64,000 bases of DNA from Mobilicoccus caccae (GCF_030161635.1 NZ_BSUO01000001.1:3515199-3579198), one strand, 5' to 3'; shown: positions 57,712-62,878, numbered from the stretch's first letter. Notes: generated by a model from the letters alone, not told the origin. Numbers and translations are program-made.

Positions 57712-60700
57712 GTGCCCCGTCCCTCGCCCCGGCTCACGCCCCGTCGCGTCGGTGTCGTCGCCGCCCGAACCCTCGGGACGACGATCGCCCTCGTCGCTGC
57801 ATCGGCGGCGAGCGCCCAGGCGCACGAGGGTGCAGAAGCGGCCCATCACGAGTCGCCGGAGGGATGGACCGCACCCGCCTCCGCGCCCGAGGACACCGGC
57901 AGCGGGACGCCTGGCGCCGCTCAGCACGAGTCCCCTCCGCCACAGGAGCAGGCGCCGACTCAGGACTCCGCGCCGACGGCGCACGCCGAGGAGCGTCAGG
58001 CGACGCCGCAGCCGCAGGAACACACCGAGCCCCCGCAGAGCTCTCCCGAGCCCTCGCCGAGTCACTCACCCGAGCACACTCCCGACGCCGCGCACCCGCA
58101 GCAGCACGAGACCCCGACGCCGGCCCCCGACCGGGAGCAGAAGCGGAGCTCCGAGGCTGAGCGTCCCTCGCAGCAGGAGCAGGCGTCGCCTCCTGCGCAC
58201 GAGCCATCGCAGCAGCAGACACCCGAACCCGCGCGTGAGCAGCATCGTCCTGACGAATCGCCGACCCCACCGAGAGCGGAACGGTCTTCTGAGCGAGCAG
58301 CAGCCGCCGAGCGAGCAGCCGCCGAGCGAGCAGCCGCCGAGCGAGCAGCGGCCGAGCGAGCAGCGGCCGAGCGAGCAGCGGCCGAGCAGGCGGCAGCCCA
58401 GCAGGCGGCGGACGAACGAGCCGCAGCCCAACGGGCGGCGGCTGAGCAGGCGGCGCAGCACGCGGCGGCCGAACAGGCAGCCCGGCAAGCCGCCGCCGAC
58501 CAGGCAGCGGCCCAGCACGCAACCGCCCAGCACGCCGACGAGTCCCGGCCGGAGATGAGCGACCAGGCGCAGGCCGAGGCGCAACCCACCGAGGTGAGCG
58601 AGCAACAGCACCCTGCACCGATCGCGCAGCCACAGGCCGAGATCCAGGAGCAACCGCAGGTCGGCTCACCCCGGGCTGACGCAGTCGACGGACCCCGATC
58701 CGAGGACCAGGGCCCCCACGCACCTCAGGTCGAGGACGCCACCACGGCCGGCCCCGCCGTCGCGACGCCGAACCTCGACGCCGCGCCCACGCAGCCGCCG
58801 ACACCGACACCGACACCGACACCGACACCGGAGTCACCCTCTGCCGGCACACCGACCGCGAACTCACCCGAGTCACCTGCGCCCGATCACGGGCCCGTGG
58901 GTCACGGAGCGGTCGAGCAGCCGGCGGTCGGCGCGCCCGAGGCCACGCCTCAGGTCGACACCGCAGACACGACCGCCGGCACGGCCGGTCAGAAGATCGG
59001 GCCTCTCGAGGGCGGACCGACGCCGCAGTTCAGGGCCGCCTTCGCCGCGACACCGCCGGCGCCGACGCACCGTGCAGAAGCTCTCCCGGGCGACGCCCGA
59101 CAGCCCGACGCCCACGACGACGCACGAGAGGCGCCGCCCGACTCCGCTCCTGACCACGCTCCCGGCAGTGACGCCACCGAGCCCGAGCCGGGTATCGCTC
59201 ACCTGCCCGGACTCCCCGAGGTCGGCGAGAAGGCGCGCCCACGCCCGGTTCCCGAGGCGCCGGACTGGTGGACCGCCCTGTTCTCCGGTGCGGACGCCCG
59301 TCGAGACGACGCCGACGATCACCGCGGCGACCGTGAGAAGTCCGCGCCGGCGCCCGAGGACGACCACGAGTCGCGCGATGAGCGCCGCAACGCAGGGGCG
59401 CCCGAGGGTGGGCGACCCACGGACGACGACGACAACGACGAGAAGCGCGACCGACACGAGAAGCGCGAGGAGAAGAACGAAAAGAACGAGAACAAGGACG
59501 TCAAGAAGAAGGACGAGGACGACGGCGACGCCGCAGCCCGGTTCTTCCGGTCGTTGTTCGGCCTCGACGACGAGGACAACGACCGCGAGGAGGAGAAGTC
59601 CGAGAAGCCTGCGGCGAAGCGTGCCGAGGACAAGAAGACCGAGCCGAAGAAGAAGGGCGCCTCCACGAGCCGTCCGATCATCGACCTCGACAAGGACGAC
59701 AAAGACGACGAGGACGAGGAGGACGACCGGGGACCGCGTCGCGCGACGCCCACCGTCGAGCCGCTGAAGCTGTCGAAGCTCTTCGAGCTCGACTCCGAAC
59801 CGCGCTCCGCGAAGACGCCCCGACGCGCGGCGTCCCCCACGACCGAGCCCCGCCGGTCCCCGCAGAACCGCCGGGAGGAGACCTCGGGCCTCGACGATCT
59901 GCGCAGGCTGCGGGCGGACGGGGACGACGCGGATCCCACGACCGACTCCGACGACGAGGCCGTACGGGGCGCTCGGACCACCGATACCCAGCCTCCGCGC
60001 GAGACCCCGGCCGACGCCGGTTCGGCCACCAGCCGTCCGACCAGGTCGACGCCCACTCAGCCCACGCCTCCCGCACAGACCTCCGCCCCCACGGCCCCGT
60101 CCGCTCCGTCGACACCTGCACAGACGCAGACACCCCCGGCTCCGACACGGTCCGAGCAGCGCAGCGAGCGGATCCCGGGGTTGCACACCCCGCGCCCCGA
60201 CACCTCGCGTCTCGTGCCCGCGCCCCTGCCGCCGCGGACGTACGCACCGGTCCCCTCCGCGGCCGCACCCCAGGAGGGCACTCGCAGGACGCCGCGCACC
60301 GAGACACCCACCCCGGAGCGGTCCTGGCCGAGTGGTGTCGTCCGGGGCGGGCGTCCCGTGGACACCGAGCGAGGCCGTCCGGCCGACGTCGTCGTGGTCA
60401 CCGTCGACGGCCGGTCCTGGGGGTCGATCGTCGCCGCGGATGCGCTCCGCCCGGTGCGGGATTCGGCCGCGCGAGTCGTCGTCGAGACGCCGCTGCTGCC
60501 GGAGTCCGGATTCGACCTCGCGCAGTGCGCGGCCGGGGAGTACCGCGACCAGTGGACGACGTTCGGCACCCGCCTGAAGACGCTGAAGACGCCTCCGATC
60601 GTCGCCCTCGGGCCGGGCATGAACGAGTCCGGGCACCCGTGGAGCGGAGAGGCCGCCGACTACGCCGCGTGCTTCACCGACGTGGCCCGCACCGTCAAGC

Positions 60701-61174: not shown

Positions 61175-62878
61175 GTGGTCCGCGATCCCGGGGAGACCGC
61201 CCGCGAGGCGGCCCTGCGGACGGTCCTCTCGCAGACCTCCTCGCCGAGGAACGTCGACATCTTCACGCCCGCGGGGGTCGTCCTGCACGTCCGGGCCGAG
61301 CCCGGTGGCCGACTGCACGTCCTGGGGCAGAGCACGGCCGACCCTGCGTGCGGCGGCGACGAGACCGCGACCGCGACCGGCGACCCCACCCGGGTCACCA
61401 CCGACGAACCTGCGACGGACCCCTCGACGGGCCGGCCGAGCGCCCCCGACGAGGGCACCACCGACGCGACTCCCGCGAGCCCGACAGCCGCCGAGCAGAC
61501 CCCCTCGAACGCGACCGATGACCCGTCGGCGACACAGGAGCCGGCGACCTCGACCTCGACCTCACCACCCCGGGTCGGCGGCCCCTGGACGCAACGGGAT
61601 CTGCCGTGGCCGGCCGAAGCGCCACCACCCAGCCCGGAGGACGAGGCGTTCGAGGCCCGCATGCGCTCGCCGCGGCGCAGGCTCGGCAGACGTCTGAAGA
61701 TCCTGCGCCGGCCCGACCTCCAGCACAGCTTTCGGCGCCCACGGGCGAACCGCGGCCGCATCCTCGCCGTCGTCGCCGTGACGATCGCCGCGCTCGTCAC
61801 CGTCTCGGCGCTGGCCGGGGGCCTGATCCACCTCGCGCGCTCCGCCCAGGCGCCGGCCGTGCACATCGCCCAGGGCGAGCCGTTCCCCGGCGACCCTCCG
61901 GACGGGACGGGCGAGCCGCGCTGGGCCAGCCCGGTCCTGCACCGCGAATCCCCGGTCGCGCTGGTGCCGGGTGAGGAGCAGGTCCTCTCCTTCGTCACCG
62001 CGGATCGGACGCTGGCCGCGGTCGATCCGGCCACCGGCGCCGTCCGGTGGACGACGTCTCTGCCCGAGGGCGCCCTGACGACCGGCCCGGCGACCACCCG
62101 CGTGGACGGCGCTCCGGCGATCGCCGCCCGGGTGGGAGATCACGTGCTCCTGTGGGCCGCCGCCGACGGCCGCACACTGGCCGACGTCACCGTGCCTGCC
62201 GGGAGCGAACTGGTCCTCGACGGCCAGACGCCGATGATCCGCATCGACGCCGGCCGAGCGGCGCTGCTCGACGCCTCCGGTCTGCACGACGTCGACCTCC
62301 CCGACGGCGCGCGGGCGCTGGCCGGCCGCGAGGACGGCACGATCCTCGCCGGTGGGAGCGGAGGGTGGTGGCATCTGCGCCCGTCCACACCCGCCGGGCC
62401 AGTCACCCCTTGGGAGCAGATGCGCGGACTCGGCGACCAGGGCACCCCCGAGGTCGTGGCGGCCATCGGCTCCTTCGTCCTGCTCGTCCACCCCGACCCC
62501 GACCGGCCGCGCCTGCTCGTCCACCACGACGGCGACGTCGTCCGCGCGAGCTTCCAGAGCGAGTACACCGCCGGTCGCGACCCGATCTGGGCACCGTCGC
62601 CGAGCCGGAGCTGGGGCATCCTCGGCCGCAGCCTCGTCGACGCCGAGTCCGGGCAGGTGACCGACCTCGGCGATTGGCGGACCGTCCTCGTCGCCGAGGA
62701 CCACGCCTACGGGCTCGTCGGCGACACCCTGCACACCACCGGCCCCGGCCGCCCGATCACCCCGGTGTCGGTGAGCACCGCCGTGGTCGAGGCCGGTTCG
62801 GCCGCCGCCTCCGTCGTCCGCGCCGACACACCGGAGGGCCCCCGGGTGTGGGTGATGAGCACATCGGCCTACCGTTGA
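61175..62878 (+). CDS. single-pass membrane protein with extracellular beta-propeller
   Basis: 567 residues from GTG 61175. Order: small N-terminal beta region, Thr/Pro/Ser-rich linker (about 65-130), basic juxtamembrane stretch (RRRLGRRLKILRR), one helix (about 195-222: ILAVVAVTIAALVTVSALAGG), then a PQQ-like propeller (about 240-560: LAAVDPATGAVRWTTSLPEG, WAAADGRTLADV, VDAESGQVTDLGDW). The same frame continues upstream without an ATG, GTG or TTG and reads TTPVVVRIRAAGDDETAFVDG, which looks like folded protein, so the true start may be upstream with an unusual codon (CTG at 61082) or a lost base. It follows the GH26-like gene by 70 bases and probably acts with it. Confidence 0.65.
   Translation: MVRDPGETAREAALRTVLSQTSSPRNVDIFTPAGVVLHVRAEPGGRLHVLGQSTADPACGGDETATATGDPTRVTTDEPATDPSTGRPSAPDEGTTDATPASPTAAEQTPSNATDDPSATQEPATSTSTSPPRVGGPWTQRDLPWPAEAPPPSPEDEAFEARMRSPRRRLGRRLKILRRPDLQHSFRRPRANRGRILAVVAVTIAALVTVSALAGGLIHLARSAQAPAVHIAQGEPFPGDPPDGTGEPRWASPVLHRESPVALVPGEEQVLSFVTADRTLAAVDPATGAVRWTTSLPEGALTTGPATTRVDGAPAIAARVGDHVLLWAAADGRTLADVTVPAGSELVLDGQTPMIRIDAGRAALLDASGLHDVDLPDGARALAGREDGTILAGGSGGWWHLRPSTPAGPVTPWEQMRGLGDQGTPEVVAAIGSFVLLVHPDPDRPRLLVHHDGDVVRASFQSEYTAGRDPIWAPSPSRSWGILGRSLVDAESGQVTDLGDWRTVLVAEDHAYGLVGDTLHTTGPGRPITPVSVSTAVVEAGSAAASVVRADTPEGPRVWVMSTSAYR

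Follow-up and report, generated by a model that had tools for sequence, protein, structure and literature searches.

The hydrolases of glycoside hydrolase family 26 (GH26), among them CtLic26A, AlXyn26A and Cellulomonas fimi Man26A, fold as a (beta/alpha)8 barrel, and their retaining chemistry needs an acid/base Glu on strand 4 and a nucleophile Glu on strand 7. Beta-propellers are familiar from BamB and the pyrroloquinoline quinone (PQQ)-like proteins, and propellers or comparable single-pass proteins also belong to machines of the bacterial envelope. EccB, a component of the type VII secretion system (T7SS) of the T7SSa type, is a single-pass protein with an outside domain, and the PQQ-binding-like propeller WP_009086634.1, encoded in a conjugation operon of an Amycolatopsis sp. 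AA4 plasmid, adjoins a wall-acting C40 peptidase. TsgL of T7SSg is a DUF5050 propeller protein of Bacillota whose gene accompanies those of WXG100 proteins and of an EccC/EssC-type ATPase, and no GH26 link has been described for it (PMC11217815). Here we analyse two adjoining genes of Mobilicoccus caccae, a member of the Dermatophilaceae, in a window of 64,000 nucleotides (bases 3515199-3579198 of contig 1, NZ_BSUO01000001.1, in the 4.53 Mb, five-contig assembly GCF_030161635.1). Gene 1 encodes an exported protein that ends in a GH26-like barrel and gene 2 a membrane-anchored propeller; both are real genes, and their pairing is conserved within a small group of actinobacteria. We propose, with about even confidence, that the pair is a cell-envelope module in which the membrane propeller works with an exported glycan-acting partner, in this case a catalytically dead one that serves as a glycan scaffold. 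The coordinates of all features are collected in the table below.

The relationship of the gene 1 barrel to GH26 lies beyond the reach of the Pfam profile (PF02156), which matched neither the whole protein nor the barrel at E values up to 1. A profile of seven family members found GH26 mannanases of the PDB at the sequence level (E 0.004), and hhalign aligned the barrel with an intact GH26 paralogue at E 9e-20. The AlphaFold2 model (predicted local distance difference test, pLDDT, 72; predicted template modelling score 0.77) has the GH26 barrel fold, with the lichenase CtLic26A as its best structural match (Z 19.6 over 230 residues), Z values of 16.5-19.6 to the three hydrolases named above, and GH26 entries as nearly all of its top matches. 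The catalytic residues are gone. The acid/base motif W-E-[FM]-N of the intact GH26 paralogues of the same genome is P-G-M-N in gene 1, and their nucleophile motif P-E-W-G is A-R-W-G. The original prediction, made from the DNA alone, had foreseen the Arg at the nucleophile position and had taken the acid/base Glu to be preserved in an MNE motif; alignment to the intact paralogues upholds the former and contradicts the latter, as the aligned residue is Gly, and the Glu of MNE stands three residues further on, where two of the three congeners read MNR or MNA. The nucleophile Glu is present in none of 14 aligned rows of stand-alone barrels (two rows being copies of one record) and the acid/base Glu only in the distant genome G050, whereas both are present in all 11 intact paralogues compared. 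Since it has the fold and lacks the catalytic residues, the gene 1 barrel is, on its sequence, a pseudoenzyme of GH26 descent rather than an enzyme of that family. Gene 1 is further set apart from the GH26 hydrolases by the silence of Pfam, a long disordered stalk and an obligate propeller neighbour.

It is very improbable that gene 1 is an enzyme gene in decay, or that its product remains active by way of another residue. A Glu of the last strand (LAYEAY) is invariant across seven stand-alone members and this assembly has a damaged gene 2 start, which could speak for such a reading, but the strand 4 and strand 7 Glu are both absent, and the strand-8 site holds an acidic residue in most intact paralogues too, so that it does not provide a substitute. 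Decay is also at odds with conservation across genera and with the ratio of non-synonymous to synonymous substitution rates (dN/dS). By simple Nei-Gojobori estimates this ratio is 0.27-0.64 for the dead barrel against 0.12-0.20 for intact GH26, indicating looser constraint on the former; together with identities of 54-70% between congeners, these values mark the barrel as a maintained protein. In a tree of the barrels, 13 of the 14 stand-alone members and all five dead barrels linked to secretion or conjugation machines form one group against the intact enzymes (support 100/99), and the G050 barrel falls on the opposite side, with a long branch. The simplest reading is one old loss of the catalytic Glu followed by maintenance.

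Further observations concern the barrels and their paralogues. The G050 barrel (L072:12491-13354), itself linked to a propeller, has kept the acid/base Glu (HEANGDW) and has Arg at the nucleophile position, and may be a half-way stage. Seven stand-alone dead barrels share two invariant Cys (columns C68 and C116 of alignment A5) at positions where the intact paralogues of the T7SS locus have Ala; the two Cys may form a stabilising disulphide. The genome of the window has twelve GH26-like places, two of which are a duplicated plasmid stretch. Among the intact copies, one that carries malectin-like domains (L012:6351-8438) lies beside what appear by eye to be polysaccharide-synthesis genes.

The remainder of gene 1 agrees with the original prediction of an exported protein with a signal peptide, a long low-complexity part and a C-terminal GH26-like domain, as judged from the sequence and the structure model. 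Very similar signal peptides are found in the orthologues of M. pelagius NBRC 104925 and M. massiliensis SIT2, which with a Mobilicoccus metagenome-assembled genome were the same-genus genomes compared. The stalk, of about 830 residues, passes from a Pro/Glu/Gln-rich part through an Ala-rich (ERAAA)n part, a Pro/Ala/Thr part and a Lys/Asp/Glu part to a Pro/Thr part. Its WWTALF motif is common to the window and M. massiliensis and was found nowhere else. No sortase-type C-terminal sorting signal or other C-terminal anchor was found, and the protein ends with the barrel. The only Pfam and NCBIfam matches to full-length gene 1 were histone-like ones of low complexity, which were dismissed as an effect of composition.

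Gene 2 encodes a small N-terminal domain, a Thr/Pro-rich disordered linker, a membrane helix and a beta-propeller (structure model of mean pLDDT 69). Propellers fill the Foldseek match list, with E 6e-8 to BamB, and the fold is thus that of a BamB-like propeller; the Pfam family PQQ_2 gave a match below its cut-off, at 23.8 bits against 27.6. The single-pass protein with a Thr/Pro stalk and a propeller that had been predicted therefore stands, with its PQQ-like assignment resting on fold and this sub-threshold match. The likeness to BamB is one of fold only: gene 2 differs in being membrane-anchored, in its cytosolic domain, in its Gram-positive host and in being paired with GH26-like genes. 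No library searched gave a name to this membrane propeller family. The N-terminal domain likewise found no name in Pfam, and its profile detected the domain across Actinomycetales, fused either to MinD/ParA-like ATPases (L206, L207, L208, L210, L216) or to further membrane propellers. Because of the ATPase fusions, it may be an interaction domain, and the pair could then be a sensor, in which the dead barrel senses an outside polysaccharide and gene 2 relays the signal through the membrane helix to the cytosolic domain. We consider a sensor improbable, as no conserved kinase, regulator or other output gene was found beside the pair at the loci compared.

The start of gene 2 deserves comment. 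It had been placed 70 bases beyond gene 1, which is probably not correct: the homologous coding sequence reaches the stop of gene 1, at which point the M. pelagius and M. massiliensis genes have an ATG start codon that is missing from the window sequence. Two plasmid copies in the same assembly differ by single-base insertions or deletions in G runs, and frames are broken in low-complexity parts elsewhere in the assembly; because of these, the missing ATG (window 61090-61180) is probably an assembly indel. The dead GH26 genes at the T7SS locus (L009:6565-8423) and at the plasmid locus (L011:6099-9181) contain frame breaks too, probably caused by the same kind of assembly error.

The original prediction had made its reading depend on the two genes staying together in relatives, and they do so at every locus that could be assessed. 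A GH26-like gene lies beside the propeller at all 17 loci with readable surroundings (12 stand-alone, four at a T7SS and one on a plasmid). Among 58 relatives, a propeller match was found in eight, the eighth (G047) being weak, a GH26-like match in nine, and both in seven. In a family-wide search of 188 genomes, the strong propellers (E < 1e-76) all adjoin a GH26-like gene, bar two at contig edges. Weaker propeller matches (E > 1e-46) were considered for the same family and rejected, as they lack a GH26 neighbour and form a separate branch; several are in conjugation loci. Named carriers of the pair outside Mobilicoccus are Piscicoccus intestinalis and Kineosphaera limosa, in which the barrel gene is at a contig end. 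In M. pelagius, M. massiliensis and G085, the stand-alone pair has an intact GH26 gene upstream of it, at a distance of 4-11 kb.

Beyond what had been predicted, the same kit recurs together with intact GH26 genes beside two envelope-crossing machines. In all four Mobilicoccus genomes, a T7SS locus (L009/L019, L073, L074, L075; outside the window) comprises two WXG100 genes, an EccD-like gene, EccC (568 and 501 bits, above the EccCa and EccCb cut-offs), a propeller, an intact GH26, a dead GH26 and an alpha/beta hydrolase. EccB was not found in these four genomes and scored above cut-off in four T7SS-bearing relatives that served as positive controls; Mobilicoccus matches to the mycosin MycP were below cut-off and away from the T7SS locus. 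The second setting is contig 2, a plasmid, where a propeller, an intact GH26 and a dead GH26 form a trio; among the genes around it are those of a VirB4-like AAA_10 ATPase, a TrwB/TraD-like coupling protein and an NlpC/P60 protein. Distant propellers outside the family also occupy conjugation-type loci with VirB4- and VirD4-like genes (L128, L129, L130, L205, L212, L218, L219), where they adjoin wall enzymes of the SLT+M23, VanY, M15 or C40 types, and several share the N-terminal domain of gene 2. WP_009086634.1 resembles gene 2 in being a membrane propeller next to a wall-acting partner, and differs in its identity of about 30% over half the length, in a partner that is not GH26 and in its conjugation operon. 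TsgL, by its published description, resembles the propeller of the Mobilicoccus T7SS locus in its WXG100 and ATPase neighbours, from which the window pair differs in having no secretion ATPase alongside. The Mobilicoccus propeller stands at the T7SS locus of genomes in which no EccB was found and shares the single-pass topology of EccB, but gene 2 has no detectable homology to it; its reading as an EccB homologue was rejected, since hhalign gave a probability of 0.7% and aligned the membrane helix alone.

These settings raise the possibility that the pair is an accessory of envelope-crossing machines, either T7SS or the type IV secretion systems of conjugation, with the propeller docking on the machine, the GH26-like partner opening or lining a path through wall or capsule, and the window copy being either a duplicate that acts in trans or a relic of a locus of this kind. 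In the four Mobilicoccus genomes, where no EccB was detected, the kit follows immediately after EccC, on the plasmid it has VirB4- and VirD4-like genes nearby, distant propellers belong to conjugation loci, and a propeller is part of T7SSg (PMC11217815). We nevertheless regard this as unlikely. Neither an EccC-type ATPase nor WXG100 genes were found beside the window pair or its stand-alone relatives, which on that measure are not T7SS components, and the T7SS version is found in fewer genera than the stand-alone pair. In G009 and G016 the pair occurs and a T7SS EccC does not, and strict dependence of the window pair on a T7SS is therefore ruled out.

We return to the proposal of a cell-envelope module. 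What the settings have in common is that a membrane propeller is encoded together with an exported protein that works, or formerly worked, on a wall or coat polymer, which is why we assign to gene 2 the part of an adaptor and to gene 1 that of a scaffold. Gene 2 would sit in the cytoplasmic membrane with its small domain inside and its BamB-like propeller outside, while the stalk of the exported gene 1 product, being long, disordered, highly charged and in part helical, would let the barrel reach into or through the wall. With both catalytic Glu lost, the barrel is most likely a glycan-binding or scaffolding domain, a role to which its modelled fold and its conserved aromatic residues point. 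Descended from a glycan-cutting GH26, it may work next to the intact paralogues by binding or scaffolding a beta-glycan from the coat of the cell itself, and the propeller would hold or orient gene 1 at the membrane. We infer the binding of a glycan, the contact between the two proteins, the location of gene 1, the own-coat target and the adaptor role from this arrangement. The target glycan is probably the cell's own, because a GH26 gene, WpsE, belongs to an actinobacterial exopolysaccharide (EPS) cluster (PMC13390465) and an intact paralogue lies in the apparent polysaccharide-synthesis locus mentioned above.

Several points weigh against the envelope module. The pLDDT of the barrel is only 72 and that of gene 2 only 69, the stalk diverges fast, and in two of its three settings the kit accompanies a secretion or conjugation machine, whose service may be its true function. 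A wider reading, which we offer tentatively and hold to be doubtful, is the following: a portable envelope module of propeller, cytosolic docking domain, and active and dead GH26 may have been put into a T7SS variant in place of EccB, and into a plasmid conjugation system, and may also exist free-standing as in the window, with the dead GH26 as a glycan-holding guide for machines or polymers that cross a thick sugar coat.

That the pair is an adhesin for host or surface glycans, along the lines of the adhesive assembly first suggested, now appears quite improbable. The long stalk with a possible lectin-like tip would suit an adhesin, and several named carriers are of animal source, for example strain NJES-13, an EPS-making isolate from an emperor penguin (PMC8400323). 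Gene 1, however, lacks a sortase signal or C-terminal anchor, and a GH26 kit adjoining secretion loci is unlike an adhesin. The recurrence at T7SS and plasmid loci and the distant propeller-peptidase pairs favour a module of the envelope, or one associated with secretion, over an adhesin. Of the original interpretation, the pseudoenzyme on an exported stalk, the outward propeller and the conserved pairing remain, and the retained acid/base Glu is lost.

The envelope module, if correct, has consequences beyond this locus. The analysis defines a conserved clade of GH26-derived pseudoenzymes that goes gene by gene with a membrane propeller family, and the recurrence of the kit, both at a T7SS that lacks EccB and at a conjugation system, provides a testable link between outside propellers, glycan-acting partners and the secretion machines of Gram-positive bacteria. 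A further prediction is a T7SS variant that has a propeller in the place expected of EccB. A literature search, with most subscription journals outside its coverage, found no paper describing the pair and nothing relevant that links GH26 or Dermatophilaceae with T7SS.

Table. Features of the gene pair and its surroundings, in window coordinates
Feature	Start	End	Strand	Basis and remarks
Ribosome-binding site GGAGGA upstream of gene 1	57701	57706	+	sequence
Gene 1	57712	61104	+	open reading frame of 1130 residues, start GTG 57712; orthologues in Mobilicoccus, Piscicoccus, Kineosphaera and others
Gene 1 signal peptide	57712	57822	+	predicted by eye; cleavage after AQA, residue 37
Gene 1 stalk, disordered, low-complexity	57823	60330	+	residues 38-873; composition
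ERAAA/EQAAA run, six copies	58309	58398	+	residues 200-229, in the Ala-rich, probably helical part
WWTALF motif in stalk	59266	59283	+	
GH26-like (beta/alpha)8 barrel	60331	61101	+	gene 1 residues 874-1130
Gly codon at expected GH26 acid/base Glu	60616	60618	+	alignment to intact paralogues
Arg codon CGG at expected GH26 nucleophile Glu	60928	60930	+	alignment to intact paralogues
Gene 2	61103	62878	+	frame open and coding homology from about 61103; first usual start GTG 61175
Gene 2 cytosolic N-terminal domain, beta-beta-alpha-beta-beta-beta	61115	61336	+	model residues 5-78; alignment A7
Gene 2 membrane helix	61754	61837	+	model residues 218-245
Gene 2 BamB-like beta-propeller	61880	62872	+	model residues 260-590; Foldseek
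Small third gene after the pair	62919	63380	+	four Mobilicoccus genomes and G085; no known family

Two minor observations concern the assembly and the wider window. On plasmid contig 2 (L010, L011, L217) the same region occurs twice, about 55.56 kb apart, as in an over-assembled circle with homopolymer errors. Far from the pair, at window 1372-5045 on the minus strand, lies an FtsK/SpoIIIE-type ATPase distantly like EccC, which is split over two frames here and is conserved in the rest of the Mobilicoccus genomes (L150-L152).

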